Shown piece by piece: positions 6-26,300 of a DNA stretch of 27,669 bases. The stretch lies in the IMG/VR virus record IMGVR_UViG_3300048586_000138, positions 1 to 27,669 of that record. One strand, 5' to 3'. Made by a program: the position numbers and the translations under genes. Positions within the stretch are counted from its first letter, which is position 1; the number at the start of each line of letters is the position of its first letter. The notes under the pieces were generated by a model. That model was not told the origin of the DNA. It worked only from the letters and a program-made list of their open reading frames with translations, and ran no database searches. This DNA comes from a virus.

Positions 6-911
6 ATGCGCGTCCAACTGATCAGCCGCGAAAATGGCCTGGGCCTGTCCCACGACATGCAGGTGCTGCGCTCGGCGTTGGTGGGTATCAGCGGGGAGGC
101 CATGCAGGTGAGTTCGGTGGACTGGCAAGCCAAGCCAGCGGCGGCGGGTTCCTTCGATGTCAACATCTTCCTCGAACTGCTGAACCCGGCGCACTACCGG
201 AGCGCCAATCGGAACGTCCTGGTCCCCAACCCTGAATGGTTCGTGCGGGAATGGCGACCGCACCTCAATGGACTTAGCCAGGTATGGGCCAAGACGCGGG
301 ACTGCGATCGCATCTTCCAAGGGCTGCACCGGGACGTGAAGTACACGGGATGGAGTTCCTTCGACATGCACGACCCGACCGTGGAGCGCCGAAAGGCCAT
401 GCTGCACGTTGCGGGCGGTTCCTCGGCCAAGGGTACGGCGGCGGTGCTGGAGGCCATGCGGATGCTTCCCCAGCACCGGCTCACGCTGGTCAGTTCCCGG
501 CCCATCACATCGCCCCCGGAGAACGTCACGGTGCTGGGAAGGCAGGACGCAGCGGAACTGAAGTGGCTTATGAACGAACACGCGGTGCATGTCTGCCCGT
601 CCAGTTACGAAGGCTTCGGGCACTACATCAACGAGGCGCGTTCTGTTGGTGCGGTGATCGTATCCACGGCGGCTGCCCCGATGGACGAAGTGGTCGGCGG
701 CGAGTACGGGCTGCTGGCCGGGGTCGCTTCACGCGGCTGGCAGAACTTGGCTACACACCAGCACGTGGATCCTGAGGCGCTGGCAAAGTGCATCCGTTCG
801 GCGATGGCTTGCCCGCTTCCCATTCTGGTGGAACTTGGCGGCCATGCGCGGGAGCAGTACCTGTTGGACGCGGCGGCATTCGAGCACAACCTGATCGACC
901 TGCTGAAATGA
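6..911 (+). CDS. GT-B fold glycosyltransferase (GT4-like)
   Basis: Probably transfers a sugar from a nucleotide-sugar donor to an unknown acceptor in the cytoplasm. The 301-residue protein has the C-terminal donor-binding half of a GT-B enzyme: a strand-loop HVAGGSSAKGT near 134-144, and an EGFGHYINE stretch at 202-210 that fits the E-x7-E motif of GT4-type retaining transferases, followed by hydrophobic VIVST and then a PMDEV loop. The N-terminal half is shorter than in classical GT4 enzymes (usually 350-400 residues), so it may be a reduced phage form. The ATG at 6 is the first start visible, and an upstream one outside the window cannot be excluded. The stop overlaps the next start by 4 bases, so it is cotranscribed with the methylase. 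Fold is well supported; substrate is unknown. Confidence 0.85.
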   Translation: MRVQLISRENGLGLSHDMQVLRSALVGISGEAMQVSSVDWQAKPAAAGSFDVNIFLELLNPAHYRSANRNVLVPNPEWFVREWRPHLNGLSQVWAKTRDCDRIFQGLHRDVKYTGWSSFDMHDPTVERRKAMLHVAGGSSAKGTAAVLEAMRMLPQHRLTLVSSRPITSPPENVTVLGRQDAAELKWLMNEHAVHVCPSSYEGFGHYINEARSVGAVIVSTAAAPMDEVVGGEYGLLAGVASRGWQNLATHQHVDPEALAKCIRSAMACPLPILVELGGHAREQYLLDAAAFEHNLIDLLK

Positions 912-1591
912 TCAACCTCCACCACATCGACTGCATGGAGTTCATGCGCACCATGCCTGACAAGTGCTACGACTTGGCTATCGTGGATCCTCCGTATGGG
1001 ATAGGGGCCGCAAAAGGAACGTGGGGGTCGTCGAACTGTGGCAAGGTGACCAACTACGGGAAAAAGAAGTGGGATGACTATGCTCCGGATGCCGACTACT
1101 TCAACGAGCTGCGGCGCGTATCGGCCCATCAAATCATATGGGGAGCGAATCACTTCATTTCACGCATTCCTCTAGACAGCCCATCGTGGGTTGTTTGGGA
1201 CAAGGACAACAGCGGAGACTTTGCTGACTGTGAACTGGCGTGGACATCGTTCCCGTCTGCTGTCCGCAAGTTCACCTTCCGATGGAACGGAATGCTACAA
1301 CAGGACATGCGCAACAAGGAGCAGCGCATCCACCCCACACAAAAGCCCGTGGCCCTGTACCGCTGGCTCCTCCAGAACTACGCCAAGCCGGGGCAGAAGA
1401 TCCTCGACACCCACGGCGGGTCCATGTCCATCGCCATCGCATGCGATATCGAAGGGTTTGATCTTGACCTGTGCGAGCTGGACCGTGACTACTTCGAGGC
1501 AGGAAAGAAGCGGCTCGAAGCGCACCAAGCGCAGCCCAGAATGTTCGACGCACCGAAGGCACAACCCGCACAACAACTGACGCTCGAATGA
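908..1591 (+). CDS. DNA adenine-type methyltransferase (N6/N4 MTase)
   Basis: Likely methylates an exocyclic amino group in phage or host DNA, using S-adenosylmethionine. The 227-residue protein has the catalytic motif DPPYGIG at 27-33, a target-region stretch with FADCELAWTSF near 105-115, the family signature HPTQKP at 142-147, and a SAM-binding motif DTHGGS at 167-172 in place of the more usual D-P-F-x-G-S-G. The catalytic motif precedes the SAM motif, the beta-class order. No restriction endonuclease lies beside it, so it is probably an orphan phage methylase used against host restriction. An upstream in-frame start at 788 would overlap the glycosyltransferase by over 120 bases; the ATG at 908 gives the ATGA overlap used throughout this cluster. 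Recognition sequence cannot be read. Confidence 0.93.
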   Translation: MINLHHIDCMEFMRTMPDKCYDLAIVDPPYGIGAAKGTWGSSNCGKVTNYGKKKWDDYAPDADYFNELRRVSAHQIIWGANHFISRIPLDSPSWVVWDKDNSGDFADCELAWTSFPSAVRKFTFRWNGMLQQDMRNKEQRIHPTQKPVALYRWLLQNYAKPGQKILDTHGGSMSIAIACDIEGFDLDLCELDRDYFEAGKKRLEAHQAQPRMFDAPKAQPAQQLTLE

Positions 1592-2202
1592 TCCGCGTCG
1601 GCATCATCCACTACACCGCCTCGGAACGCTGCACGCTTCCGGCGACCATCGCATCGCTGCACGCCGCTGGCATCGGGTCCGTGAAGGTCTACGCCGACGC
1701 CGGGGAGTTTGGCCCCACGCGCAACCTGATCCGGGCCATGCGCGACCTTGCACAAGGCGACGGCCCCGAACTGATGGCCGTGGTGGACGACGACCTTGTA
1801 TTCGATCCGTCGTTCCTTTACCGCTTCAGGTGGACGCCTCGACCGCATCGCTCCGGGTACAGCCTCTGGACCATCGAACAGAATATCCCCCACGACCGAA
1901 GGGACGAACGCGGCTGGCTGGAGGTGCCCCCGCACTACCACCTATGGGGCGGATCGGTGGTCATGCCCTGCTGGCTGGCCCAGGCCGTGGCCGAGGCGAT
2001 GGAGCAGGTGATGGAGGAGGCTCCGGAAACCTTGGCCACCAAGCCGGACGCCGTTCTGTTCGAGGCCATGCGCCGGACCGGGACACGGCTCTACTTTCAC
2101 GTCCCGAGCCTTGCCGACCACATCGGCACCAGCGACAGCACCATCGGCAACGACCACCAGGACGGCCAGACCGCTGGCTACCTATTCCCCCGCAACGCAT
2201 GA
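1588..2202 (+). CDS. DxD glycosyltransferase-like protein (GT-A type)
   Basis: A probable GT-A-fold glycosyltransferase of 204 residues. It opens with a beta strand (VGIIHYT, residues 4-10) typical of nucleotide-sugar binding, continues with an SVKVYADAGEFGPTRNL segment, and has VVDDDLVFDP at 65-74, an acidic DDD cluster fitting the metal-binding DxD motif. A later LWGGSVVMP segment and the ending PSLADHIGTSDS (about 175-186) resemble the acceptor and C-terminal parts of GT2/GT25-like enzymes. It overlaps both neighbours by 4 bases, so it belongs to the same transcript as the methylase and the FkbM protein. It is short for the fold. Donor and acceptor are unknown. Confidence 0.75.
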   Translation: MIRVGIIHYTASERCTLPATIASLHAAGIGSVKVYADAGEFGPTRNLIRAMRDLAQGDGPELMAVVDDDLVFDPSFLYRFRWTPRPHRSGYSLWTIEQNIPHDRRDERGWLEVPPHYHLWGGSVVMPCWLAQAVAEAMEQVMEEAPETLATKPDAVLFEAMRRTGTRLYFHVPSLADHIGTSDSTIGNDHQDGQTAGYLFPRNA

Positions 2203-2909
2203 ACACCTACCAGATCACCCGCTACGGCCACACCTTCACACTGAAGGCCGACGACGAACTGATGGAGGCCCACTACCGGAAGGGCGAACTCTCCGAGCCG
2301 CACATGCTGGACTGGATGTACCTCAACCTTCCACGCGGCGGGGTATGGATCGACGCCGGGGCGAACATCGGGAACCATACGCTGCCATTCGCGCTGTGGG
2401 CGGACCAAGTGATCGCCTTCGAGCCGATGGATGTGAACGTGGACCTGCTCATGCAAAACATGGCGGCGTTCAAGGTCGAAGGTCGTGGGCGCATCATGGT
2501 CCTGTCCTGTGGCGTTGGCCGCGAGGAGGGCTTCGCGTCGGCCAAGGTGGGAGGCACTGGTAAGAATTGCCAGTGGGAACTTACGCCTGGAGACGAATGC
2601 GAGGCTGGCATCCCCATCGCCAAGATCGACAACCATGTACGGGATACCGATGACGTGCGGGTGATCAAGCTGGACGTGGAGGGCATGGAGCAGGACGCGC
2701 TGGCCGGGGCTATGGGAACGATCGCCCGCTGCCTGCCCGAACTGTTCATCGAGATCTGGGACGAGGCTATCCTGGCGGACATCACCGCTACATTGGCCCC
2801 GCTGGGCTACGTTCTTACCGAACGGTACAACGTGTCCCCGACCTTCCACTTCAGCGCCTCGGGACGCTACCCAGTGACTTACACCCCCGCAGCACGCCTC
2901 CGACCATGA
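2199..2909 (+). CDS. FkbM-family SAM-dependent methyltransferase
   Basis: FkbM-type enzymes usually O-methylate sugars or polyketides, so this probably modifies a glycan made or recognised by the adjacent glycosyltransferases. The 236-residue protein has the SAM-binding loop WIDAGANIGNHT at 50-61, an acidic end of strand 2 (FEP, 74-76), a CGVG element near 109-112, and the family signature KLDVEGME at 157-164, followed by ELFIEIWDE. A longer reading from 1830 would run through the whole preceding gene; the ATG at 2199 forms an ATGA overlap. Assignment to FkbM is secure; a sugar substrate is inferred from neighbours only. Confidence 0.9.
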   Translation: MNTYQITRYGHTFTLKADDELMEAHYRKGELSEPHMLDWMYLNLPRGGVWIDAGANIGNHTLPFALWADQVIAFEPMDVNVDLLMQNMAAFKVEGRGRIMVLSCGVGREEGFASAKVGGTGKNCQWELTPGDECEAGIPIAKIDNHVRDTDDVRVIKLDVEGMEQDALAGAMGTIARCLPELFIEIWDEAILADITATLAPLGYVLTERYNVSPTFHFSASGRYPVTYTPAARLRP

Positions 2910-3131
2910 CCGAGATCAAGTGCGCCTTCACCCCGTGCCAGTGTGTGAAGCTGATCCACGACCCGGAGAATCTTCACCGTATGATCACGCAGGTGTTCAT
3001 ACGGTGAAGGCGGGTCCATACGCTATGAGCTATCGTGCGGCGAAAAGGCGAGTGTCCACTACGAAGCCGAGATTGAACCCGTGGAGCAACAGGAGCAAGT
3101 TGTTGGCTTCCGCATAACCTTCACCCCATGA
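2906..3131 (+). pseudogene. Small gene split by a +1 frameshift
   Basis: Reading starts at ATG 2906, overlapping the FkbM stop by 4 bases, and encodes a peptide beginning MTEIKCAFTPCQCVKL that meets TGA at 3005-3007 after 33 residues. The frame one base ahead is open from 2985 to the TGA at 3129-3131, which itself overlaps the next ATG by 4 bases, and encodes plausible protein including YGEGGSIRYELSCGEKASV. If one base between about 2985 and 3005 is skipped, a single 74-residue protein results, with both ends joined to neighbours in the style of this operon. No homopolymer or classic slip site explains it. It could be a sequencing indel, a real mutation or a programmed shift. The alternative third-frame reading at 2920-3117 looks like a shadow. 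Function unknown; four cysteines are present in the joined protein. Confidence 0.55.
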
Positions 3132-3484
3132 GCAACCCCAAAGCCTACCGGATGCCGTTGCGCTTCCGCCTATTCAAGCTGCGCCGATGGATGTACGGAC
3201 GCATCAACTACCTGCTCCATCGCATCCGTTGGCGGGTCAACCGAGAAGTGGAATTCGACCCCATTATCTGGGCTGCTGGTGACGCCGGTGAACTCCGCAT
3301 GACCGTGAACCCATGCACGGCCGAGTGGGAGCTTCACATAAAAGTGAAGTCGAAGGACGGCTTCGACACCTACGAAGCCTACACGATCAACGAGGTGGAC
3401 GTGGTGACATCCGGTTACCGGATGCGGGACGCCATCGACCGGGTATGCCTTGACCACTGCATGAAGTACAAGATCCTGCCATGA
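3128..3484 (+). CDS. Hypothetical protein, 118 residues
   Basis: I do not recognise this protein. The N-terminal 40 residues are strongly basic and aromatic (MPLRFRLFKLRRWMYGRINY, then LLHRIRWR), suggesting nucleic-acid or membrane-surface binding. The rest alternates short hydrophobic and charged stretches and looks like a small beta-rich domain (ELRMTVNP, WELHIKVKSKDGFDTYEAYTI) ending in a helix with RVCLDHCMKYKI. It sits in a tight chain with 4-base overlaps on both sides, between the split small gene and a zinc-motif protein, so it is expressed with the modification island. Confidence 0.7.
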   Translation: MSNPKAYRMPLRFRLFKLRRWMYGRINYLLHRIRWRVNREVEFDPIIWAAGDAGELRMTVNPCTAEWELHIKVKSKDGFDTYEAYTINEVDVVTSGYRMRDAIDRVCLDHCMKYKILP

Positions 3485-3834
3485 AAGAAACCCACCGCAT
3501 CAACAGGAACGGGGCCGAGTACGACCTGACCATCGAGGAGTTCAAGGACCAGTGCGCACACTGCGGCGGCCGTGGCTTCCACACCTTCTTCACGCAGGAG
3601 GACGAGGACCGCTACGACCTGGCCGTGGACGAATGGAGCGACGGGGATATGGATGACGAGGCCCCCGAAATGCAGGAAACCGGAAAGCGGACCTGCGACC
3701 GATGCCAAGGGACCGGCGTTCACGAAGGCGACGGCACCGCATACAGCTACACGCTGAAGGCCGCGCAAGAGATCACCGTGAACCCGAACGGATGCGACCC
3801 AGCGCGATCCGGTGTACTCAAATACGAGGTGTGA
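3481..3834 (+). CDS. Small protein with DnaJ-type CxxCxGxG zinc motifs
   Basis: This 117-residue protein carries two CxxCxGxG motifs, CAHCGGRG at 25-32 and CDRCQGTG at 72-79. They are the paired zinc-binding repeat seen in the DnaJ cysteine-rich domain and in several small phage proteins. An acidic loop of about 40 residues separates the two knuckles, so together they probably bind one zinc ion. There is no J domain, so it is not a DnaJ chaperone. It may bind nucleic acid or an unfolded protein. It overlaps the previous gene by 4 bases and is followed after 2 bases by a glycosyltransferase. Zinc binding is well supported; the role is unknown. Confidence 0.8.
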   Translation: MKETHRINRNGAEYDLTIEEFKDQCAHCGGRGFHTFFTQEDEDRYDLAVDEWSDGDMDDEAPEMQETGKRTCDRCQGTGVHEGDGTAYSYTLKAAQEITVNPNGCDPARSGVLKYEV

Positions 3835-3836
3835 CC

Positions 3837-4718
3837 ATGAACGTAGTACTGATCCCCTGCTGGCGCCGCCCGGAAATGCTTTGGCACGCGCTGGAGAACA
3901 TCAAACGCGCCCACGGCTCCGACGCCTACCACTACATCTTCCGCCTGGACCGAGGGTACGACCCGGCCATCCATGAGGTGCTAGCTGGCTTCCCGTTCTC
4001 CCACCAGATCAGCGAGGCCGGACCGATCAAGTACCGCGAGATCTCCAAGCAGAGCCACAACCTGCTCCAAGGGTACGCCATGGCCGCCCAGCAGTCCGAC
4101 GCCTTGGTGATACTGATCGAGGAGGACATCATGGTGGCCACGGACTTCTTCGCCTTCCACGAGCAGGTGCACGAGGCGGACCCCACCCTGTTCTGCTCCA
4201 TCGCCGTTGCCAACCCGAACCGCAAGGTGATCGACCAAGGCACCAAGGACGCCTACTACCTGAGCGACGGGGACTACTGCAGCCTGGGCGTTGCCTTCCG
4301 CAAGGAGGTGATCCAGACGCTGATCATGCCGCACAACGTAGGCGACTACTTCGTGAACCCAGAGGGCTACTGCCGAAAGACATTCCCGAACAGCCCCATC
4401 GGGCACGGGTACGTGGAGCAGGACGGGTTGATACGCCGGATCCAGATGCGGCAATCCCGACCGATCGCTTACCCATGGCAGGCGAAGGCATACCACGCGG
4501 GCCTGTACGGGAAGAACCGGGGCAGCGGCCCCACGGGCAACTGGCGGCAGCGCCTGAAGTACGTCACCGACATCATCTACTCCGACGAGGCGATGCGTAC
4601 CTTCGCAAAACACCCGGAGTGGTACGAAGACAGCAAACCCATCAACCTGAACGCTGAACCATGGCAGACCCTGCACCTACAACCACTGGACCCGAACAGA
4701 AACCCGGTCCGCTTCTGA
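3837..4718 (+). CDS. Glycosyltransferase-like protein (GT-A, EED metal site)
   Basis: A likely GT-A glycosyltransferase of 293 residues. The N-terminus has the strand NVVLIPCWRRPEML that begins the nucleotide-binding fold, then YIFRLDRGYDP near 33-43, and after a hydrophobic strand (ALVILIEEDI, 89-98) the acidic EED at 95-97 that takes the place of a DxD motif. SLGVAFRKEV and HGYVEQDGLIRRIQ match acceptor-side and catalytic-acid regions of GT2-like or GNT-I-like proteins, and AYHAGLYGKNRGSG is a plausible flexible loop. The in-frame start at 3702 lies inside the zinc-motif gene; ATG 3837 follows that stop by 2 bases. It is the third transferase of the island. Confidence 0.75.
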   Translation: MNVVLIPCWRRPEMLWHALENIKRAHGSDAYHYIFRLDRGYDPAIHEVLAGFPFSHQISEAGPIKYREISKQSHNLLQGYAMAAQQSDALVILIEEDIMVATDFFAFHEQVHEADPTLFCSIAVANPNRKVIDQGTKDAYYLSDGDYCSLGVAFRKEVIQTLIMPHNVGDYFVNPEGYCRKTFPNSPIGHGYVEQDGLIRRIQMRQSRPIAYPWQAKAYHAGLYGKNRGSGPTGNWRQRLKYVTDIIYSDEAMRTFAKHPEWYEDSKPINLNAEPWQTLHLQPLDPNRNPVRF

Positions 4719-6629: not shown

Positions 6630-8142
6630 GCAGGCCAGCGGCATACGTCCCCTGGGCCAAGGCGCATCGAACGCATGGCACTACCTCCACGACCAGGTAA
6701 AGAAGGAGGTCTTCTTCGGGGGATCGGCCGGACCCGGTAAGACCTTCCTCGGCTGCTTCTGGCTGGTGCTTGCCTGCCTGAAGTACCGCGCCATCCGATC
6801 GGCCATCTTCCGGGCCACGGCTGAAGACCTGCGCAAGTCCTCCCTTGTGACGCTGTTCGAGGTGCTGGAGAAGTCCGGGCTGAAGGACGGCACCCACTAC
6901 CGATACACCGAGGGCAAGGGCTTCCTGCTCTACAACGGGAGCACGATCGAACTGGACTACCTGAAGTATGAGCCCAAGGACCCGAACTATTCGCGCCTCG
7001 GGGGGCGGGCCTACACCTACGCCTTCGTGGATGAAGGGGACCAGGTGGAGGAGCGGGGCGTTGGGGTGCTATCCGGCCGCCTGCGCTACCGGACCACGGA
7101 GATATGCCACGCCTGCGCCGCCGAGGGGCTGGCCGTGAAGTCCAAGGCGGTGGACTGCGACGACGAGGGCAACCCGGTCCAGTGGGAGTGCTACAACTGC
7201 GGCACATGGAGCAAGGGACTGGTGCCTAAGTTGCTGATCACCGGCAACCCGGGCGACTACTGGACGAAGTACCGCTACGTGATGAACAAAGAGGGGGAGC
7301 GCGTCAAGCTCAAGCCCCACCAAGCCCGGGTGCTGGTGCTGCTGTCGGACAACCCGGACAAGGCGCACGTGGCCAGCTACCGCCGCCAACTGGAGGACGG
7401 GGACGACGAGTACGACAAGGCCCGCCTGCTGGATGGGGACTGGAACGCCACGCGCAAGACCGGGCGGGAGTTCTTCCACAGGTACGACAGGGCGAAGCAC
7501 GTCATGCGGATCCCGTACAACCCGGACCTGGCCCTTCACTTCACGATGGACTTCAACACGGCCCCCTACATCACCGGCCAGGCCGCTCAGATATGGTGGG
7601 AGGAGGACCGCAAGCGATGGCGGTGCCACTTCCTCAAGGAGTACTGCCTTGTTCACCCGTTCGCCACGACCGAGGCCCTAGCTCAATCCATGGCGAAGGA
7701 CATGCGGGACGGGGCGTTCGCGGGCCATGCCAAGGGATGCTACTACTACGGCGATGCTACTGGGAAGAACAAGACGACCCAAGTCGTAGGGGCCATCCGG
7801 CACAACTACGACATCGTAGAGAAGGATCTGCGGACATTCCTGCACAACAACAGCGACCGGGTGATCCGGCGCAACCCTCCGCACAGCGTGGTGCGGGACT
7901 TCGGCAACGCCTACTTCGATGGGAGGATCGGCCTGTGGGTGACGTTCGACCCGGGGATGGTCAACACCACGATGGACATGATCCAGGTGAAGGAGGCGGC
8001 GGACGGCGGGATCTTGAAGGTGATGGAGAAGGACAGGGCCACGGGGGTAACCTATGAGAAGTACGGCCACTGCTTGCAGGCGTCCTACTACCTGACGGTG
8101 GGAGCCTTCCCGGACCTGTTTGCGCGGTTCGTTCGGAAGTGA
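6622..8142 (+). CDS. terL: Terminase large subunit (ATPase-nuclease)
   Basis: The motor that cuts and pumps phage DNA into the procapsid through the portal. The 506-residue protein has Walker A GGSAGPGKT at 33-41, a Walker B-like YAFVDEGD at 133-140, a coupling motif ITGNP at 206-210, and a C-terminal RNase H-fold nuclease with acidic residues in FTMDFN (D310) and YYYGDATG (D378). Between the ATPase motifs lies an insert with two cysteine pairs, CHAC at 162-165 and CYNC at 190-193, likely a zinc knuckle. Length is normal. It is translated from an ATG overlapping terS by 8 bases. Its stop codon is part of the repeated promoter module P1. Confidence 0.95.
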   Translation: MNEQASGIRPLGQGASNAWHYLHDQVKKEVFFGGSAGPGKTFLGCFWLVLACLKYRAIRSAIFRATAEDLRKSSLVTLFEVLEKSGLKDGTHYRYTEGKGFLLYNGSTIELDYLKYEPKDPNYSRLGGRAYTYAFVDEGDQVEERGVGVLSGRLRYRTTEICHACAAEGLAVKSKAVDCDDEGNPVQWECYNCGTWSKGLVPKLLITGNPGDYWTKYRYVMNKEGERVKLKPHQARVLVLLSDNPDKAHVASYRRQLEDGDDEYDKARLLDGDWNATRKTGREFFHRYDRAKHVMRIPYNPDLALHFTMDFNTAPYITGQAAQIWWEEDRKRWRCHFLKEYCLVHPFATTEALAQSMAKDMRDGAFAGHAKGCYYYGDATGKNKTTQVVGAIRHNYDIVEKDLRTFLHNNSDRVIRRNPPHSVVRDFGNAYFDGRIGLWVTFDPGMVNTTMDMIQVKEAADGGILKVMEKDRATGVTYEKYGHCLQASYYLTVGAFPDLFARFVRK

Positions 8143-8153
8143 CGAACGGTTCG
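8143..8153. promoter_or_regulatory. Palindromic operator candidate, copy 1
   Basis: The 11-base sequence CGAACGGTTCG is a perfect inverted repeat (arms CGAAC and GTTCG around one G) starting directly after the terL stop. The same 11-mer lies at 12145-12155, in the same position relative to a promoter. A one-base centre cannot form an RNA hairpin, so a DNA-binding dimer is more likely than a terminator. It sits 9 bases upstream of the -33 element. Confidence 0.6.
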
Positions 8154-8162
8154 GGCCAAGGC

Positions 8163-8194
8163 TTGCAAATGTAAAAGCGGAGGCGGTATGTTTG
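8163..8194 (+). promoter_or_regulatory. Bacteroidota-type promoter P1
   Basis: A TTGCA element at 8163-8167 and TATGTTTG at 8187-8194 match the Bacteroidota sigma-ABfr consensus (TTG at -33, TAnnTTTG at -7), with start-to-start spacing of 24. The spacing and flanking bases equal those of P2 at 12165. Transcription would begin around 8198-8202, within a few bases of the ATG at 8202. Confidence 0.75.
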
Positions 8195-8201
8195 CCATAC
8201 C

Positions 8202-8588
8202 ATGAAACTCTGCTGCCCCCGTCCAATGCTCCAGCGCGTGAACGATACGCTGCGCCAGTGCCTATGCTGCGGCAAGGTGACCAACACGGTCAAGCGCAAG
8301 CCATCCAAGAGCCCACCACTGCCAGCCGCCCCGGACGGGTACGTGAAGGCGGCGGTACTTGCCGAACGCTACGGGGTCACATCCAAGGCGATCAACCAAT
8401 GGGCGCACCGGGGGCTGGTATCACGTTACGGCCTCTACCATTACTGGGAGAAGGACGTGGCGGCATGCGCTGACCACCTGCACGAATCGGTATCCAAGGC
8501 CGTGCGTACATCTTCGGTGAATACCCGTGGCCTTGGCACCAAGGTGAAGCACGGATCCATGAGCTACTACGGCAACCTGAACCAGTGA
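8202..8588 (+). CDS. Zinc-ribbon plus helix-turn-helix protein
   Basis: A probable DNA-binding regulator of 128 residues. Cysteines at 4, 5, 20, 22 and 23 (MKLCCPRPML and QCLCCGKV) form a short zinc-ribbon-like N-terminus. After a basic proline-rich linker comes a MerR/excisionase-type helix-turn-helix at about 48-85, with AERYGVTSKAINQWAHRGLV as its core. The start at 8202 keeps the first cysteine pair but leaves almost no leader after promoter P1; ATG 8226 is the alternative. It is the first gene after the twin-type promoter and a candidate to act on the nearby palindromes, though nothing in the sequence proves this. It overlaps the following membrane protein by 4 bases. Confidence 0.75.
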   Translation: MKLCCPRPMLQRVNDTLRQCLCCGKVTNTVKRKPSKSPPLPAAPDGYVKAAVLAERYGVTSKAINQWAHRGLVSRYGLYHYWEKDVAACADHLHESVSKAVRTSSVNTRGLGTKVKHGSMSYYGNLNQ

Positions 8589-9100
8589 ACCAAATGACCT
8601 ACCCCATCACCTGCCTCCTCTGCACGGTCATCCTCGCCATCGCCTCGGGCATCATCGAAGCCTTGGTCGTCCAAGTGAGGACCGCCACCGGCGTAGGCCG
8701 CAACCTTGAGCACGACATCCTGCTCACCGGACGGCTGCTGATCGGCGGGATCGGTATCGTGTTCCTCGGGTACATCGAGCAAGCCAGCGCCATGCAGATG
8801 CTGATGGTGACCTTCGCGTGCATGGCCGCCTTCGCCATGGTCCACCGGGTCGTGTTCAACCTGTGCCACCGGAAGCAGATCACATACATGGGACCCGAGA
8901 CGCGCACAGCAGAAGACGCGCAGTACGATACGCTCTGGCATAGCATCGCGGCCAAGGAGGAGGTCCACGAGCGCGTGTTGTTCAGGCCCGATGCGGTCCA
9001 GTACGTCCCCCGGTTCGCCCACGCGCCGTTCGTGTTCGCGGTCGTGTTCGAGGCTTTGGTGTGCGGAGTCTGTGTATTCATTGCCTTGGCGGTACATTAG
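8585..9100 (+). CDS. Multi-pass membrane protein
   Basis: A 171-residue protein with about four membrane helices: ITCLLCTVILAIASGIIEAL near 8-27, LLIGGIGIVFLGYI near 50-63, MLMVTFACMAAFAMVHRVVF near 72-91, and a C-terminal VFAVVFEALVCGVCVFIALA. A charged cytoplasmic-looking loop of about 50 residues lies between helices 3 and 4. Translation may start at the GTG at 8585, which overlaps the previous stop in the GTGA style, or at ATG 8594. Function unknown. Cotranscription with an HTH protein under its own promoter suits a moron acting on the host envelope, such as superinfection exclusion. Confidence 0.7.
   Translation: MNQMTYPITCLLCTVILAIASGIIEALVVQVRTATGVGRNLEHDILLTGRLLIGGIGIVFLGYIEQASAMQMLMVTFACMAAFAMVHRVVFNLCHRKQITYMGPETRTAEDAQYDTLWHSIAAKEEVHERVLFRPDAVQYVPRFAHAPFVFAVVFEALVCGVCVFIALAVH
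9069..9100 (+). promoter_or_regulatory. Weak promoter candidate upstream of portal
   Basis: TCTG at 9069-9072 and TACATTAG at 9093-9100 match the TTTG and TAnnTTTG elements with one mismatch each at the 24-base spacing seen in P1 and P2. The distance from the -7 end to the portal ATG (18 bases) is like that of P4 and P5. It overlaps the end of the membrane-protein gene. Confidence 0.35.
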
Positions 9101-9118: not shown

Positions 9119-11215
9119 ATGAAGCTCGAACAAGCCGTACGGATCGCCCTTCCCAACGTATCCCAGAAGCTCAAGCACGAGCACTACGAACGCGTCACGC
9201 ACCTGACCAGCCACTACTACCGGCCCATGATCACCGGCGAAGGGGCCGAGCACCTTATCCGGCGCTTCAACATGCGAGAGGACGAGGCGGCATACAAGCA
9301 GCGGCTACTCCTCACCCAACTGATCACCCCGGCGATCACCAATACGCTGATGTCACCAGCCCGCAAGGTGCCCAAGGTGAAGCCGGTGGTGGATAGCGCG
9401 ACCTTCGGGCAGGAGAAGGCTAAGGAGGATGAGAAGTTCAACGAAGCGGTCGCCAACTTCTACGCGGGCAAGAACGTCGACCACTACTTCGCCTCGGTCC
9501 TGATCGACCAGAGCGCCATCGACCCCAACGCCTTCTGCTTGGTGCTGTTCGACGACTACGATGCCACCTTCGAAAGCGCACGCGGGTATCCATCCATCGT
9601 ATCGAGCGCCGACGCATGGAACTTCCGCTACGCCAACGGGGAGCTGATTTGGCTGATGGTACACCGCGACATCAAGTACGTGGAGGCCAAGGTTCCGGAG
9701 AAAGGGAAGAAGCTGCCCACGGGCAACAAGCCCGAGGAGGTGGTGAAGGACGGGCACGCCTTCTGGCTGTACACGGACCGGAACCACATCACCTTCACCC
9801 AGGTGGACAGCGGCAAGCTGACCAAGGGAGCCGAGGGCCTGGTGCTGGACAGCAATGGCAACGCGGTGGGCAGCTTCGAGAACATCACCACTGGCAAAGG
9901 CGCTGGCTACTTCTACCGGGTAGGGCCCAACGAACTGTACGAGGTGGCCTTCTACGCCCACAACACGGGCATGGTGCAGGCGTTCCGCATCGGCTACGTG
10001 CCAGACCAGAGCACCAAGGGGGAAACCTGCGTGAACCTGTGGCACCCGGCGCTGCCATACCTGCTCAAAGGCATCAAGGCTGGCAGCGAGCTCGACCTGA
10101 GCGCGGCGCTCCATGCGTTCCTCCAGAAGATCATGTACGCGAACCGCTGCGAAGGGTTCCGGGGATCGGACGGCACGCTGACGGAGTGCAACATGGGGTA
10201 CGAGCCCGGAGGCGCAAAGTGTAAGGCCTGCAACGGCTCCGGCCTTCAGGTGCATCGCAGCGGGCAGGACCACATCACCCTGTCGATGCCCCGCAGCAAG
10301 GACGAGATCTTCCCCTTGGCGGAATTGGTCCACTACGTACAACTCCCGGTCGAAGTGCTGGAGTGGCAGGACAAGTACGTGGACAAGCTGGAGCAAGCGT
10401 GCTACCGGGCGGTCTACAACTCGGACCGCTTCAGGGCGAACGCTTCGGAGGTGACGGCCACGGGCGAGATCATCGACCTGCAAGCTGTGTACGATGCACT
10501 GAAGCCCCTGGCCGATTGGTACAGCCAGAGCCGGGTGCTGGTGTACAACCTCGAGGCGGTGTATGTGAGCAGCGCAGAGGTGGCCGACAAGTCCTTCACG
10601 GTCGCCCACGAGTTCCCCCGCAACATGCGCTTCGAGACGCTGGCCGAGCGGGTGAAGCTGATGGGAGAGATGCGGACGGCCGGGGCGAGTTCATCGGCCT
10701 TGGCACAGGTGAACAACGACATCCTGCAAGACCTGTACATCGACGACCCGCGTGAACTGCTCAAGGCACAGGTGCAGGCGTCCTTCGATCCGTTCCTTGG
10801 GAAGAACGAGGCGACGATCGTGAGCATGATCTCGCAGGACCTGACCACCGAGGAGAACAAGGTGCTGTGGACGAACTTCGCCTACGTGTTCGCCGAATGC
10901 GAGGAGAGGGCGGGAACGATGCCGGATGAGAACGGCAAACCCGTGGACTTCTATTCCATGTCCCGCGCCAAGCAGCAGGAGATGATCGACGAGGTGGTGG
11001 AGGAACTTATCGAGGAGATCGACGAGAAGAAGGAGGCCAACGTTGCGTCCTTCGGGATGCCGGGTACCGATGGGCAGGACGAGCAGGACAACGGCACGGG
11101 CGAAGGGGAGAACGCGGACAGCCCGGATGACATCGACGCAGATGATCCAGCCGGACAAGGATCCGGTAATACCGACGACCTGCCAGCAAGCCCCGGCAAT
11201 AGCGCCACGGCATGA
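9119..11215 (+). CDS. Portal protein
   Basis: The portal is the dodecameric ring at the capsid vertex through which DNA enters and leaves. Assignment rests on position directly after the packaging genes, size (698 residues) and architecture: an alpha-helical N-terminus, a central beta/alpha region (AFCLVLFDDYDATF, SSADAWNFRYANGELIW), a long helical segment near 400-470 (WQDKYVDKLEQACYRAVYN), and a very acidic C-terminal tail rich in D, E and G. Unusual is a cysteine insert near residues 343-375, with ECNMGY and KCKACNGSG in a DnaJ-like CxxCxGxG style, probably a zinc knuckle. The ATG at 9119 follows a short gap. Its stop overlaps the head morphogenesis gene by 4 bases. Confidence 0.82.
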   Translation: MKLEQAVRIALPNVSQKLKHEHYERVTHLTSHYYRPMITGEGAEHLIRRFNMREDEAAYKQRLLLTQLITPAITNTLMSPARKVPKVKPVVDSATFGQEKAKEDEKFNEAVANFYAGKNVDHYFASVLIDQSAIDPNAFCLVLFDDYDATFESARGYPSIVSSADAWNFRYANGELIWLMVHRDIKYVEAKVPEKGKKLPTGNKPEEVVKDGHAFWLYTDRNHITFTQVDSGKLTKGAEGLVLDSNGNAVGSFENITTGKGAGYFYRVGPNELYEVAFYAHNTGMVQAFRIGYVPDQSTKGETCVNLWHPALPYLLKGIKAGSELDLSAALHAFLQKIMYANRCEGFRGSDGTLTECNMGYEPGGAKCKACNGSGLQVHRSGQDHITLSMPRSKDEIFPLAELVHYVQLPVEVLEWQDKYVDKLEQACYRAVYNSDRFRANASEVTATGEIIDLQAVYDALKPLADWYSQSRVLVYNLEAVYVSSAEVADKSFTVAHEFPRNMRFETLAERVKLMGEMRTAGASSSALAQVNNDILQDLYIDDPRELLKAQVQASFDPFLGKNEATIVSMISQDLTTEENKVLWTNFAYVFAECEERAGTMPDENGKPVDFYSMSRAKQQEMIDEVVEELIEEIDEKKEANVASFGMPGTDGQDEQDNGTGEGENADSPDDIDADDPAGQGSGNTDDLPASPGNSATA

Positions 11216-12144
11216 ACCAAGGAGCCGCCAAGACCATCCGGGACGCTGAACGCCTGCTCGACCAAGGGCAGCGGGCGCGGCTTGCCGATATGGGGGCGCT
11301 GGAGAAGCTGATCACCATCCGCCTGCTGGCTGAACTATCCAGCGATCTACAGGAAGGCGAGGACGGCCGGGTGCGCTCCACGAGGGGATCGGTATCGGTA
11401 GCCCGGATGGTGGATCAGGTGTTCAAGGCCGTGGAGAAGCGGGGGCTGAAGAAGATCGGCCGGGATGCCGTCAAGGACATGCGCGGCGTGCTGGATCTCA
11501 ACGCCCGGTACTACGGGCAGATCGCCGAGCCCAAGGGCGGCAGCTTCCCCGAGATCAAGAAGACGGTCGATGCCATCATGCGCAAGCGCCTCGGCCTGAC
11601 CCCCAAGCACCAGATCAACCCCAAGGGGTACATGGGGGAGCTATCCAAGACCGACAAGGCGCGGGAGGAGGTGAAGAAGATGATCGCCAAGGCCATCGCA
11701 GCGGGTCGCCCCATGCGGGAACTGGAGCGGGCGGTGAAGGTGAAGGTGGCCGGGACGAAGAACACGCCCGGCGTCCTGGAGCGCAACCTGGGCGGGTTCC
11801 TTCTGGATGCGTATCAGGTGGCCGACGCGGTGACTGGCAACGAGTTCGCCAAGCGGTTAGACCTTCGCTACTTCATCTACTCGGGCGGGCTGATCGAAAC
11901 GAGCCGCGCATTCTGCCGGAAGCGGAACAACAAGGTCTTCACCACTGAGGAGGCTACGAACGCGAAGACGGGCTGGGCTACCGACCCGACGCTGCCCAGG
12001 ACCAAGGAGGAGAAGGACAGCGGGAGCGTTGCGGATTACGCGCCGCTGGAGGACCGAGGCAGATGGCAATGTCGCCACAGGCTGCTGTACATCAGCGAGC
12101 AAGAGGCCCGCCGCCGCCGCCCGGACCTGTTCACAGGAAAGTGA
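11212..12144 (+). CDS. Mu F-like head morphogenesis / minor head protein
   Basis: Minor head proteins of this group (Mu gpF, SPP1 gp7) bind the portal and help procapsid assembly. The 310-residue protein has a helical N-terminal two-thirds and a C-terminal domain with the family-type segments YSGGLIETSRAFCRKRN at 223-239, a following KVFTTEEA, a tryptophan-containing WATDP, and CRHRLLYIS from 287. The paired cysteines and histidine (C235, C287, H289) could form a metal site as in the Phage_Mu_F family. The ATGA overlap with the portal and the position fit. The stop codon is the first element of the second repeated promoter module. Confidence 0.8.
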   Translation: MNQGAAKTIRDAERLLDQGQRARLADMGALEKLITIRLLAELSSDLQEGEDGRVRSTRGSVSVARMVDQVFKAVEKRGLKKIGRDAVKDMRGVLDLNARYYGQIAEPKGGSFPEIKKTVDAIMRKRLGLTPKHQINPKGYMGELSKTDKAREEVKKMIAKAIAAGRPMRELERAVKVKVAGTKNTPGVLERNLGGFLLDAYQVADAVTGNEFAKRLDLRYFIYSGGLIETSRAFCRKRNNKVFTTEEATNAKTGWATDPTLPRTKEEKDSGSVADYAPLEDRGRWQCRHRLLYISEQEARRRRPDLFTGK

Positions 12145-12155
12145 CGAACGGTTCG
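12145..12155. promoter_or_regulatory. Palindromic operator candidate, copy 2
   Basis: Second exact copy of the inverted repeat CGAACGGTTCG, again directly after a stop codon and again 9 bases upstream of a TTGCA element. Together with the six preceding bases, AAGTGA, this gives a 17-base identity with 8137-8153. Confidence 0.6.
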
Positions 12156-12164
12156 CCGTTGGCC

Positions 12165-12196
12165 TTGCATATTTGAAACGGACGGCGCTATCTTTG
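12165..12196 (+). promoter_or_regulatory. Bacteroidota-type promoter P2
   Basis: TTGCA at 12165-12169 and TATCTTTG at 12189-12196 match the -33 and -7 elements with the same spacing as P1. By hand alignment, 42 of 58 positions from AAGTGA to the end of the -7 box are identical between the two modules, without gaps. Transcription would start around 12200-12204, ahead of the ATG at 12222. Confidence 0.75.
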
Positions 12197-12221
12197 GCGG
12201 GTGACTAAACAGCACCAGACC

Positions 12222-13061
12222 ATGCCAACACGAAAGAAGACCGCCCCTAAGAAGACCACAGCCAGGAAGGAACCAAAGGCATCGCCGAAGGCCCGCAAGC
12301 CGTCACAGCTTGACCGGATCGAGCGCATCCTGAAGGACCACGGCAGCAAGATCAACGAACTACTGGACCGCACGGAGGATAGGATAACGGGAAGTCCAGC
12401 GCCTATCAATATCCACATCACAGAGCAGCCTGAGGGATTGCAGCCAGGCGACTACACGGACGCATCGAAGGAGACTGCCGATGCACTGACGGCGATGGGG
12501 TTCAAGTGGCATGACCTCGACAGGACCAAGTGCAAACTGATTGAATGGAGGATGGATGCAGTAATTGTAAACTGGGATTTTCGCGGACGCGCCTACCTCG
12601 ACCCCGCCACGTTTCTTTCCCGTGCTGCCGTGACTGCCAAGGCGCTCGGGCTGGTTCCGGTGGAGCCTTGGGCGCCGGTTGTTGGTCAGTGGGTCAAGTT
12701 CAGGGATGGGTCATGGCAGCAAAAGAAGTACGGTGGTATCGCAAAGGTGAAGAGAGGACTAACCGAGGAAGGACACTACCTGACCGAATGTGTCAGCGCA
12801 GAGCCATCTGGATACTACTTCGAGGTCAGCGAGGCTCGCCCCGCCACGGAAGACGAGATAGCCGCCCACCTTGCAGAGCAGGATGCGATGAAGCCCGTGG
12901 TGTTCGGGACGCGGGTCAATCACACCACACTAGGCCAAGGGATATGGATGGGCATGGATGGAATCCTTCACGAGTTGGCGTTTCTGAAGCACGGGAAAGA
13001 CCATCAGCACCAATGGTCAACCATCCTGTGCCCACGCGCAATGTTCACCGTAATCGACTGA
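12222..13061 (+). CDS. Accessory protein with basic tail and phage repeat-like domains
   Basis: A 279-residue protein, function unknown. The first 35 residues are lysine, proline and alanine rich (TRKKTAPKKTTARKEPKASP), like histone-type DNA-binding tails, followed by a short coiled coil (LDRIERILKDHGSKINELLD). A first globular part, with ETADALTAMGFKWHD and AVIVNWDFRGRAYLDP, looks like a small domain common in phage accessory proteins. A second, with VVGQWVKFRDGSW, GIAKVKRG and YYFEVSEARPATEDEIAAHL, resembles small barrel modules seen in Bacteroidota phage proteins. A GTG start at 12201 would lie at the predicted transcription start, so ATG 12222 is preferred. First gene of the P2 cassette. 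Confidence 0.7.
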   Translation: MPTRKKTAPKKTTARKEPKASPKARKPSQLDRIERILKDHGSKINELLDRTEDRITGSPAPINIHITEQPEGLQPGDYTDASKETADALTAMGFKWHDLDRTKCKLIEWRMDAVIVNWDFRGRAYLDPATFLSRAAVTAKALGLVPVEPWAPVVGQWVKFRDGSWQQKKYGGIAKVKRGLTEEGHYLTECVSAEPSGYYFEVSEARPATEDEIAAHLAEQDAMKPVVFGTRVNHTTLGQGIWMGMDGILHELAFLKHGKDHQHQWSTILCPRAMFTVID

Positions 13062-13065
13062 GGTC

Positions 13066-13266
13066 ATGAAAGCCACAGCATACTCCATCAGCTACAATCA
13101 ACCAGAGAGGAGCGGCCCATTTCGCTGGCACGTTTACCGTACCATCACAGGGAAGCGCATTCACTTGGCAACCAGTGCGACAAAGGCCATAGCCATTGCT
13201 GAGGCGAAAGAGGTGGTCCGCAACCTCGGCGGTAGGCTTGAGGCAACGGGCTATCAGACTCTTTGA
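13066..13266 (+). CDS. Small protein, possibly DUF2188-like
   Basis: A 66-residue protein of the layout strand-strand-helix: YSISYNQPERSGPFRWHVYR, then LATSATKAIAIAEAKEVV and RNLGGRLEATGYQ. The order W-x-V followed by a helix of alternating A/E and a final GG-x-L recalls DUF2188, but the match is by eye and weak. It starts 4 bases after the previous gene and ends 1 base before the XRE-type gene, within the cassette. Base use is visibly less GC-rich than in the head genes on either side. Confidence 0.6.
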   Translation: MKATAYSISYNQPERSGPFRWHVYRTITGKRIHLATSATKAIAIAEAKEVVRNLGGRLEATGYQTL

Positions 13267-13267
13267 A

Positions 13268-13549
13268 ATGACCCAGAAGCAGATCGGCGCGGCAGTGCGC
13301 AAGGCAAGAGGCCAGCGCAGCATCCGGGAAGTAGCCGGGGCCGCTGGCCTCCACCGTGACCAGGTGACTGGCATTGAGCAAGCCACGAAAGCTTACACAG
13401 TGCTCAGTCTCTTGGCTCTGTGCAAGGCCGTTGGGCTGCATTTGGTATTACAGGCCAAAGGCTCAGAGGCTGCATTTGACAAGGGTGCAACTGGCTCAGA
13501 CGATGTTCGGGGGTATGCTTGCCACCAACTAGGAAATTGCCACAAGTAA
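13268..13549 (+). CDS. XRE-family helix-turn-helix regulator
   Basis: A 93-residue Cro/C1-type DNA-binding protein. It begins MTQKQIGAAVRKARGQ, then has a helix-turn-helix at about 18-40 with SIREVAGAAGLHRDQVTGIE and the following VLSLLALCKAVGLHLVLQ, the usual fourth and fifth helices of the fold. The last 25 residues are glycine-rich and probably disordered. ATG 13268 lies 1 base after the previous stop; the upstream in-frame ATG at 13196 overlaps it and lacks domain support. XRE proteins bind short palindromes as dimers, so it is a natural candidate for the CGAACGGTTCG sites at P1 and at its own promoter P2; this is inference. Confidence 0.82.
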   Translation: MTQKQIGAAVRKARGQRSIREVAGAAGLHRDQVTGIEQATKAYTVLSLLALCKAVGLHLVLQAKGSEAAFDKGATGSDDVRGYACHQLGNCHK

Positions 13550-13562
13550 CATAACATCGACC

Positions 13563-14075
13563 ATGAACATCGAAGATCAGGCACGCAGGGAGGCGGAGGA
13601 GTTACTACGATTTAAACTTCGTAGCGCCATTGCAGATAAGGAAATGGTGGTGAACCAAGCCAACCGTGACGTTCAGTGTTACGACGGGTGGTCCTGCGAT
13701 TACAAGGCGTGGCAGGATGACTGTGACGCTGTGATCAACGGGCTTCTGAAAGAAATAGAGGCAATATCCGAGAGGACCAAGGCACAGCCGCTAGCATCAC
13801 CATGGAACAAGCAGCAGATCATAGACGCCGCCGTTGAATCCTTCGACATTGGCCCCGAGGACGAAGATGCCGTGCTGCGCTTCGGGATGAAGTTGCAGGA
13901 CATGGAGGATGCCGAGCGCAAGGCACAGCCGCCGGCGGAGGAGGTGATGGAGGTGATTATGCAATGGCTATCGGAGCGGTCCAGCTTGACCGGAGAACTC
14001 CGCGACCGCCTCGCCACCCTGTTCACCACATCCGCAGCCATGGCAGACATTGAGCGGTGCCAGGCAAAAGGCTGA
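13563..14075 (+). CDS. Hypothetical helical protein, 170 residues
   Basis: Not recognised. The protein is acidic and mostly helical: DQARREAEELLRFKLRSAIA, a middle part with VINGLLKEIEAISERTKAQ, WNKQQIIDAAVESFDIGPED, and a final LSERSSLTGELRDRLATLF. Two cysteines lie near residues 39-45 (VQCYDGWSCDY). It follows a 13-base gap after the XRE gene and ends 17 bases before a strong terminator, so it is the last gene of the P2 cassette. Possibly a regulatory or anti-host protein; there is no direct evidence. Confidence 0.65.
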   Translation: MNIEDQARREAEELLRFKLRSAIADKEMVVNQANRDVQCYDGWSCDYKAWQDDCDAVINGLLKEIEAISERTKAQPLASPWNKQQIIDAAVESFDIGPEDEDAVLRFGMKLQDMEDAERKAQPPAEEVMEVIMQWLSERSSLTGELRDRLATLFTTSAAMADIERCQAKG

Positions 14076-14089
14076 GGGTAACTTTACCC
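14076..14089. repeat. Short inverted repeat before the terminator
   Basis: GGGTAACTTTACCC is a perfect inverted repeat with 6-base arms around CT, immediately after the TGA of the preceding gene and 3 bases before the terminator stem. Its two-base centre is too small for a stable hairpin, so a protein site or chance is possible. Confidence 0.35.
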
Positions 14090-14092
14090 CAT

Positions 14093-14128
14093 ACGAAAAG
14101 GGCGCTCACCACGGGCGCCCTTTTTCGT
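14093..14128 (+). terminator. Rho-independent terminator of the P2 cassette
   Basis: Arms ACGAAAAGGGCGC (14093-14105) and GCGCCC followed by TTTTTCGT (14115-14128) pair around a 9-base loop, with one extra T. The core 6-bp GC stem runs straight into a T5 tract. The A-rich left arm would also make it work in the opposite direction. It separates the accessory cassette from the scaffold and capsid genes. Confidence 0.85.
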
Positions 14129-21403: not shown

Positions 21404-22170
21404 TCGCGCCATCGTCGTTCCTGAACCAGAAGTGCGTCGACTTCGACGGGGGGGCTGATTACATGTACGTGGATGACCCATCATTCAAGGCCGACACGGC
21501 CGGGGCTTGGTCCTTCTGGGCGAAGCTGGACAGCGTGTTCGTAGCGGATGGAGTACATCCAATGTTCGGTTATGGTGTACGGTCTGGTGCGAATAACGCT
21601 CAGTTCCTTTTTGGTCCACGAAGGGTAGTAGCTACAACGGGTGCCAACACATTCATGTCAATTACGCACCGGCCTACGAACGGCGGGACAATATCTGGAT
21701 ACTCGGGCACCACAACGCAGCTCGTTGCGGGTGTATGGATGCACTTCGTGGTCCAGTCCAACGGTACGGCTTGGTCCATGTGGGTAAACGGAGTTGCGCA
21801 GACTATGACGCAGTGGAATGTCACAGGAAGCAACAACGGAGACTGGTACGGCGATGTGAGCGGTGCCGACCACCGAATGACCGTAGGCGTGAACTACGTC
21901 AGTAACGGACCGGGAATGGGGTACTATCCCGGCCTATTGGATGAAGTGACCTACCTCAGTGGCCGCATATTCACAGCCGGGGAGGTGGCATCGCTGTACA
22001 ACGGTGGCACCCCGGCTAACCCGCGAAAGCTCGCATCCATCCAAGCGGACCTTGAAACGTGGTACCGCATGGGCGACAGCCGCGACGATGCCACCACGGT
22101 GTTCGATGAAGTGGGCAGCAACGACCTGACGCTGGTGAATATGGACGCATCGAACTACGTCACCCCATGA
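21391..22170 (+). CDS. LamG/concanavalin A-like lectin-domain protein
   Basis: A 259-residue protein with a LamG-type jelly-roll. It has FDGGADYMYVDDPSFKADT near 18-36, AWSFWAKLD, then LVAGVWMHFVVQSNGTAWSM with the typical W-x-H-x-x-V, a VNGVAQ strand and GLLDEVTYLSGRIFTAGEVA with SLYNGG, the ending seen in LamG-type phage and bacterial adhesins (the acidic pair before V binds or positions metal). A short C-terminal extension follows. It overlaps the mosaic virion gene by 13 bases and has the same AT-richer base use in places. Likely binds host surface glycans as a tail-fibre or decoration protein. Confidence 0.8.
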   Translation: MGSLIAPSSFLNQKCVDFDGGADYMYVDDPSFKADTAGAWSFWAKLDSVFVADGVHPMFGYGVRSGANNAQFLFGPRRVVATTGANTFMSITHRPTNGGTISGYSGTTTQLVAGVWMHFVVQSNGTAWSMWVNGVAQTMTQWNVTGSNNGDWYGDVSGADHRMTVGVNYVSNGPGMGYYPGLLDEVTYLSGRIFTAGEVASLYNGGTPANPRKLASIQADLETWYRMGDSRDDATTVFDEVGSNDLTLVNMDASNYVTP

Positions 22171-23355: not shown

Positions 23356-26300
23356 CGGCATACAGGCGGACCTCAAGGACAGCGCCCGCGATGCGCAGCA
23401 GTTCAGCAAGGCCGTGGAGGGCGGCACCAAAGTCGTGACCGCACTGGGCAAGGCTGTGGCGGCATCCAACACGGGCGGGTTCGTCAAGGGCATCGATGCG
23501 GCTTCGGCTGCAACGAAGGGACTGGAGGCATCCGTCAAGGGCGTGACCGACCAGACCAGCAAGGCGTCCGACAACCTGGAGGCCATCGCGGCATCGGCCC
23601 GGACGGCATCCACCAGCGGCAAGGCATCACTGGCCGGGCTCGGTGACCAAGCGGTACGTTCCCAGCAGCAGATCGCCCAAAGCCTCGGCATCACCGTAGC
23701 GCAGTACGAAGCCATCCGCGAGGAGGTGCGGGCCACGGGCATCGACAGCGATGTGTTCACCGAGGCCATCGCGGAGGCGGTCGCTGAACTGGCTGCGGCC
23801 GGGGTGCAGGCAGAGGACTTGGCGGCGAACTTCGAGGAGGTGACCGACCCGGTGGTGAGCCTGCAACGACAACTGCGGGCCGCAAAGCTGGAGGCCGGGG
23901 CCTTGGCTGCTGAGTTCGGTATCGACAGCGAACAGGCATTGGCGGCCCAGCGCCGGGTGGCTGAACTTGGGGATGAGGTAGGCGACCTGACGGCCCGCTT
24001 CGATGCCTTCAACCCCGACAAGAAGTTCGAGGCGTTCAACCAGCTCCAGTTCTCCCTTGTGGCGGGCCTGTCCGCCGTTCAGCAGTCGGTCGGGCTGTTG
24101 GCCGGTGATAACGAGGGGCTGCAAAAGGTCCTGTTCGGGTTCCAATCCTTGCTGTTCGCTACCCAGAGCCTCCAGCAGTTCACCGGTGGGTTCGGGGATG
24201 CGCTCAAGACCCTGCGTGCGACCTTGGGCCTCACCAGCACGGCCACGGCGGCACAAACGGCGGCAACGGTGGCAAGCGGTACGGCTACGGCTGCGGCGGG
24301 TGGTGCGGCTGCGGCATCGGCTACCGGATGGGCAGCGGCCACGGCAGCGGTCAAAGCCTTCACGCTGTCCCTGCTCACGAACCCCATCTTCCTGGTCGTT
24401 GCCGCCTTGGGTGCTTTGGCCGTAGCGGTAGCAACCTCCGGGAATGACGCGGAGAAGGCCATGAAGCAGTGGGACGACCTGTTCGACAGCCTGGACCAGT
24501 TCCGGGGGATCAGCGACCAGACCATCGACCTGGACAAGCAGCTCACGGACCTTGACATCGCCCGCCAACGGATCGCGGCCAGCGAGGGGGACTTCGCCAC
24601 GGCCCGCCGCTTGGTGCAGGACAGCGCGAACGCGGAGATCGAGGCCATCAACGCCAAGGCAGCGGCCAGGCGCCGTGATGCTGCCGAACTGCAGCGGGCC
24701 CTTGATGTGCTGATCGCTACGGGCGACCTTGAGGTGGAGGAGATCCGCGACCGCCAGCAGCAGATCGACGGCATCCTTGAGGAAGCGTCCAACACGTACA
24801 GCCAGCAGTTGGTGGTGCGCCGGGCCGCTGAGAACGAACTGGCACAGATCGACAAGGAGGCACTGGACCGCGCCAAGGAGAACGCCCAGCAGCGCAAGGC
24901 GCTCAACGAGGAACTGGTCCAAGCCGCCCGTGACCTCGCCCGCCGCGTGCGCGATGCCCAACGGGAAGCTGCCGGACAGGATGACCCATTCGAGAGGGTG
25001 CGCATCGAACGCCAGGTGGCACAGGAGGAGGTGGACGAACTCCAGCGGGGCTTCGAGCGCAAGCTGGCGGCCATCGAACTCCAGAAGCGGATCGGCGTGC
25101 AGGCTTGGCAGGACTTGTCCGATGCCGAGAAGGACGCTCGCGCCGATGCACTGATCGACAACGGCGACATCCGCCTACCGGCCCAGCAGCAGGAGCAGAT
25201 CAACGCCCTGCGCCTACTGGCCGAGGAGCGGTACTTGGAGCAGGTGGACGAACTGTTGCAGGAACAGGCCCGCCTGCGCATCGAACTGATCGAGGACAGC
25301 AACGAACGCGAACGGGCAGTCTTTGTACAGGGCCTCAATGAGCGGTTGGATGCACTGCGTCAGGCCAAGATAGAAGAGGACGAGATCAACCGATTTGCAG
25401 CCCTCGAACTTGCCCGCTTTGAGCGAGAGGTTGCACTTGCCAAGGTCGCCTTGGACGAGCAGATCCAGACGGCCCGGGTGAACGCCTTGCAGAACCAAGG
25501 GGAGCCGGAGAAGGTCTTTGTACGCCGCAAGGAACTGGAACTGCTGGCGATCAAGGAGGCCAGCGCCCAGGCCCAACTCAAGATCATCGAAGGGCAGACT
25601 GGCAAGGAAGCCGAACTGGTACGGGCCAACCTTGCCGTGATACTGGCGGAGATCGCCCGATCGCGTGCTGAACTCGCCAACAACCCTGTGAAGCTTGACC
25701 TACTGGACCTCCTCGGGGTGAAGGAGGAGGACAAGGAGGACTACAAAAAGGCCGTGTCCGACCTGTTCGCCGCAACGACAGAACTGATCTCGGCCGGTAT
25801 CGAGGCGCAACAGCAGGAGGTTGACGCGCGTATTTCAGCGACCGACCAGATCATCGCCGATGCCCAGCGCCGCCGCTCCGAACTGACCAGCGAACTGGAA
25901 CGCGAACTGCAAGCACAGCGGGAGGGCTATGCCAACAATTCGGACGCCATCCGCGCCGAACTTGAAACGGTGAACCAAGCCGAACGGGATGCGACGGCAC
26001 AGCGCAAGATCGCCATCGCTGAACGGCAGGCGTTGGCCCGTAAGCAGGTAGCCATCGACGCAGTGACGCAAGGTTCGGCTCTCGCAACGTCTGCGGCCAA
26101 CCTTATCATCGGATGGAGCAGCCTGCCGTTCGGGGCTGGCCTTATCTCCGCCTTCGCACAGATCGCCAGCATCTACGCCTTCTTCGCCAAGGTCCGTGCA
26201 CAGAGCAAGGCCGCCAGCCAGCCGGACCAGTTCGAGGACGGCGGATGGGTGGGCGGAAAGCGTCACAGCCAGGGCGGAACGGTGATCGAGGCCGAGAGGG

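Follow-up and report, generated by a model that had tools for sequence, protein, structure and literature searches.

A conserved 11-bp sequence upstream of sigma-A type promoters is probably a control site in one group of Bacteroidota phages

Two places in a Bacteroidota phage look alike: in each, a short palindrome precedes a promoter and then a set of accessory genes. Do the two modules form a small regulon, and what kind of protein might read them? The window that we analyzed is the whole stretch of 27,669 nt (positions 1 to 27,669 of IMG/VR virus record IMGVR_UViG_3300048586_000138). It is a phage fragment without the replication region, and its two copies were counted outside that region. 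The first-pass annotation of this DNA reported a 17-mer, AAGTGACGAACGGTTCG, repeated exactly and overlapping the terL stop codon at its first copy, with the palindrome CGAACGGTTCG and both promoter boxes at identical spacing. We found the same (Table 1). The terL stop codon is the TGA at 8140-8142, and the second 17-mer begins at, and overlaps, the stop codon of the gene at 11212-12144. At both copies, TTGCA starts nine bases past CGAACGGTTCG, and the -7 box begins 24 bases after the start of the TTG. An ungapped 58-base comparison gives 42 matches, as annotated by hand, and this is the sole such pair in the window; the best 58-mer pairs in three shuffles reach 36-39 identities. Within the window, the exact palindrome is limited to the two modules (8143-8153 and 12145-12155). 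Near-matches with at most two mismatches number 38, versus 10 expected (with palindromes scored once per strand), and no promoter lies near any other near-match in the window.

Table 1. Features of the two modules and the genes behind them, in window coordinates.
Feature	Position	Strand	Remark
17-mer AAGTGACGAACGGTTCG, copy 1	8137..8153	+	exact repeat, 58-mer comparison
Conserved core GTGACGAACGG, copy 1, orientation A	8139..8149	+	about -60 to -50 from predicted start
-33 box TTGCAAATGTAAAA, promoter 1	8163..8176	+	
-7 box TATGTTTG, promoter 1 (TTG-N21-TAnnTTTG)	8187..8194	+	
Cassette 1: MerR-like HTH protein, 128 aa	8202..8588	+	phrog_2474, 1.1e-6
17-mer AAGTGACGAACGGTTCG, copy 2	12139..12155	+	
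Conserved core GTGACGAACGG, copy 2, orientation A	12141..12151	+	
-33 box TTGCATATTTGAAA, promoter 2	12165..12178	+	identical in many Bacteroidota phage promoters
-7 box TATCTTTG, promoter 2	12189..12196	+	
Cassette 2, gene 1: 279 aa	12222..13061	+	no family match
Cassette 2, gene 2: 66 aa	13066..13266	+	no assigned function
Cassette 2, gene 3: XRE/Cro-C1-like HTH protein, 93 aa	13268..13549	+	HTH_31 5.5e-4, below cut-off
Cassette 2, gene 4: 170 aa	13563..14075	+	no assigned function
Terminator-like hairpin AAAAGGGCGCTCACCACGGGCGCCCTTTTT beyond cassette 2	14096..14125	+	read by eye

Which part of the module is kept in related phages? The best matches of terL are in Bacteroides and Flavobacterium phages, and we found five close relatives whose terL is 93-95% identical over the part present (g1, g3, L066, L068, and L069). 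Searching with the RecT of g3 led to g6 (93%) and, at a greater distance, to g7 (64%); the terL genes of g3 and g7 are only about 62% identical. (g1, g3, g6, and g7 are IMG/VR records G001, G003, G006, and G007, and g3 is the reverse complement of IMGVR_UViG_3300042992_001231. Sequences and coordinates are turned to the window's orientation.) In 169 kb from four motif-bearing related phages (the window phage, g3, g6, and g7) and g1, the 11-mer GTGACGAACGG has nine exact copies, versus 0.1 in shuffles. All nine are intergenic, just upstream of promoters, and are followed by a [TC]AnnTTTG box. (The 11 bases are invariant at these sites by definition, as they defined the search.) The next three bases are TTC at five sites and TGC, TGT, AGG, and GGG at one site each. 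Because this right arm of CGAACGGTTCG varies, the conserved unit is the asymmetric GTGACGAACGG and not the palindrome, which had been annotated as the binding unit.

This bears on the proposal that CGAACGGTTCG is a dimer operator recognized by one of two proteins, the HTH protein encoded at 8202 and the XRE protein encoded at 13268. Both window copies are palindromic, and both proteins are encoded behind the sites. But a classical dimer operator has both arms conserved, and here the right arm is not kept at four of the relatives' sites (g3 24856, g6 3158, g7 20355, and g7 32792). Moreover, neither protein has a homologue in g1, g3, g6, or g7, three of which bear the sites, so neither can be the conserved reader. 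We consider a dimer operator very improbable.

The relatives also show which genes lie behind the site. A 127-bp direct repeat stands at the two ends of both g3 (48 kb) and g7 (52 kb), which implies that they are complete circular contigs; g3 has exactly three copies of GTGACGAACGG and g7 exactly two. In g3, one site precedes the RecT/exonuclease operon, and the other two follow a NinB-like gene and a helicase gene; g6 and g7 have the RecT-operon site and the one that follows the NinB-like gene. The RecT-operon and post-NinB sites are syntenic in the three phages, and at the RecT operon, the -33 sequence and the orientation of GTGACGAACGG differ among relatives. (We dropped a one-mismatch site at g7 36162, which is part of the helicase coding sequence.) Since related phages keep this tag unchanged before recombination and replication genes, GTGACGAACGG is probably a control site of the phage group. 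Both copies in the window do head accessory cassettes, as annotated, but in the relatives the site heads core operons, so its use extends beyond accessory genes.

Outside the group, the motif is rare. In scans of the IMG/VR records other than the window's own, the motif with TTGCA was found only in g3. In genomes, the same search gave 11 scattered matches, none labelled Bacteroidota; one was from Chlorobiales, whose phylum in GTDB is Bacteroidota. Among 395 genomes from that phylum, 11 had one match each to the motif-promoter pair, similar to a reversed control, and terL relatives in this sample were distant only. No prophage relatives were found by terL in 85,000 genomes. (A looser search of IMG/VR for the palindrome plus a promoter matched 61 stretches that differed in arms, spacing, and context. 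This is close to a rough chance estimate, and we set these matches aside.) The motif marks nine promoters in four related phages and is nearly absent elsewhere, which supports the annotated idea of a small regulon.

The placement of the site suggests how it might work. If the -7 box spans -12 to -5 (PMC9723704), the center of GTGACGAACGG is at -55 at the four forward sites (two in the window, one in g3, and one in g6) and at -56, -57, -58, -59, and -48 at the five inverted sites. In other words, it is 55-59 bp before the predicted start at eight of nine sites, and the outlier at -48 is about one helical turn closer. All nine promoters point rightward. Use in both orientations with a set distance to the start is consistent with a protein on the DNA that contacts RNA polymerase. 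The pattern suggests a regulator that binds DNA, in the simplest case an activator. A role as RNA or as a terminator is unlikely given that both orientations occur while the promoters all face one way. (Folding is also unremarkable and Rfam gave no match, and we rejected such a role.)

Two other kinds of bound protein have to be weighed. One would be an insulator or roadblock, which halts transcription arriving from the upstream gene. At most sites, GTGACGAACGG does overlap or closely follow the upstream gene's stop codon, but short intergenic spaces would explain this. A roadblock needs no tight distance to the promoter, yet eight of nine sites keep one, and the mixed orientation is unlike that of stoperators, where orientation matters (PMC9283540). 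This makes a roadblock quite improbable. The other would be a phage or host repressor that holds these promoters off until they are needed, or auto-limits them. Phage recombination and replication operons are often repressed, asymmetric sites bound by monomeric repressors are known in mycobacteriophages (PMC9283540), and the RecT operon might encode a small regulator. Against this, the site lies upstream of the -33 and -7 boxes and overlaps neither. We found no matches to integrase, resolvase, HTH_3, HTH_17, or CI-like proteins in g1, g3, g6, or g7, and thus no sign of lysogeny; a caveat is that a divergent repressor could escape such searches. Overall, a repressor operator seems unlikely.

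The promoters themselves hint at activation as well. Sigma-A promoters of Bacteroides and Flavobacterium have a TAnnTTTG box at -7 and a TTG box at -33 (PMC7366714, PMC9723704). The sequences at both window copies, which were annotated as promoters, have this form: TAnnTTTG at the two -7 boxes and TTG at 8163 and 12165. They differ from the known sigma-A (sigma-ABfr) promoters in that the spacer is 21 rather than the expected 20 or so, the 11-mer lies upstream, and at three sites of the group, a C replaces the T in the -7 box. All seven motif-bearing promoters with a recognizable -33 box have a 21-bp spacer (two in g7 have no clear -33 box), versus a 20-bp spacer in 11 of 14 promoters that share the -33 stretch but come from unrelated Bacteroidota phages. 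This comparison is weaker than its p-value implies, because some of the sites share ancestry (g3 is close to g6). The -33 stretch TTGCATATTTGAAA is present in many unrelated phage contigs, and Bacteroidota phages commonly have the promoter box by itself. One promoter of the group lacks the motif; it lies in the late region (g3 5841 and g1 14155) and has a 20-bp spacer. (It reads TTGCATATTTGAAA-N9-CACCTTTG, without the 11-mer, and precedes small genes whose products start with MAMK.) The 21-bp spacer suggests a promoter that may need help.

What might bind the site? One candidate is an 89-amino-acid protein in the RecT operon that is common to g3, g6, and g7 (91% and 36%). By eye, it looks HTH-like, and searches of Pfam, PHROGs, predicted folds, the PDB, and phage records gave no match that supports this. 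(The genes behind the 11-mer, at g3 24950-25219, g6 3252-3521, and about g7 21528-21773, encode 82-89 amino acids.) A binder encoded by the host is equally possible.

We also examined the cassettes, each of which lies within the late structural operon. Positions 8163-8593 are missing in five of five close relatives. Positions 12146-14087, with four genes, are missing in g1, g3, L066, and L068, which are all four of the relatives that cover the second junction. In cassette 1, the start codon at 8202 is about 3 nt past the predicted transcription start, which would make the transcript near-leaderless, and in cassette 2, an alternative GTG start of the first gene, at 12201, would be leaderless. 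(The 8202 protein has a Cys-rich N-terminal stretch, CCPRP...CLCC, that resembles a zinc ribbon joined to the HTH; its predicted fold was of too poor quality for use.) The hairpin AAAAGGGCGCTCACCACGGGCGCCCTTTTT is found in g1, g3, and L068 too, where the site has no cassette, so it is not part of cassette 2.

Both copies in the window are at the left end of genes that the relatives lack, and in g1, g3, and L068, whose second site is empty, GTGAC is already present there. This would fit a cassette-end or recombination sequence that guides the insertion of accessory genes. But the relatives place the same element before core recombination and replication operons, we saw no matching right-end repeat, and no integrase or resolvase was found. 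Also, at the first site, the relatives keep a worn-looking, degenerate promoter module, which matches the window's at 27-28 of 36 bases (28 of 36 after one 22-bp deletion); the 22 bp that are left out carry the -33 box and sit between two AGGC repeats. We doubt strongly that the repeat is a cassette end.

Upstream of terL, window positions 6-4718 contain several genes that, by eye, are glycosyltransferase-like or methyltransferase-like, which is an unusual load for a phage. A further accessory-gene spot, between the portal and MuF-like genes, has no 11-mer (it spans the contig ends in g3, from 47546 to 1870, and is at 3495-5754 in L068 and 2992-3900 in L069). It has methyltransferase-like genes in g3 and nothing in the window or g1.

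Overall, we propose that GTGACGAACGG is a DNA-level site of this one phage group that is bound by a protein, most likely for activation (we put the probability at roughly 0.55). In one orientation or the other, the site lies about 50-60 bp before the start of sigma-A type promoters of the form TTG-N21-[TC]AnnTTTG. It would be bound by a protein specific for this sequence, encoded by the phage or the host. Binding would most likely activate a promoter that is kept weak by a spacer that is one base too long and sometimes by a poor -7 box. In the relatives, the site would control the RecT/exonuclease operon and the operon behind the NinB-like gene; their gene content suggests that these operons are "early." In the window phage, the same site and promoter head the two cassettes, and sharing this site would make the cassette genes follow the recombination operon's program instead of being expressed late. 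The sequences themselves show the site and its conservation, that it keeps a set position and accompanies promoters, and that relatives lack the cassettes; binding, activation, and timing are what we infer. A more specific version, to which we would give somewhat less than even odds, is that the group shares an activator that reads the asymmetric 11-mer either way at around -55 and turns on suboptimal sigma-A promoters, and that the cassettes in the late operon have joined the recombination/replication program. To our knowledge, little is known about how Bacteroidota phages time the expression of their genes. Because the 11-mer is invariant and keeps its place before sigma-A promoters, it offers a short and testable way to find the regulator, and it suggests a way for inserted accessory genes to come under a phage's existing control program.

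How does this compare to known systems? The stoperators of L5-type mycobacteriophages are short asymmetric sites, intergenic and near stop codons, with over 20 per genome, and their orientation matters (PMC9283540). The site described here is likewise a short, asymmetric, intergenic site of a phage group, near stop codons, with a conserved 11-mer and a variable right arm. But the complete contigs have just 2-3 copies, four forward and five inverted sites all serve rightward promoters at one distance, and neither a repressor nor an integrase was found in the relatives. The cassettes resemble phage morons, which are genes of one phage that are missing from close relatives and have their own promoter: both are absent between the same neighbors in the relatives, and both have a promoter by sequence (8163-8194 and 12165-12196). 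Neither seems to have its own terminator, as none was seen behind cassette 1 and the hairpin of cassette 2 is also at the empty site. Unlike in morons, the promoter here carries the control site of core operons from the same phage group. Finally, upstream-activator sites of phages, such as the Ogr sites of P2, lie near -55. Compared to Ogr-type sites, the 11-mer is asymmetric and usable both ways, it lies on recombination-type operons, and its binding is putative; what it shares with them is the position at about -55 and the use of one site by several operons.
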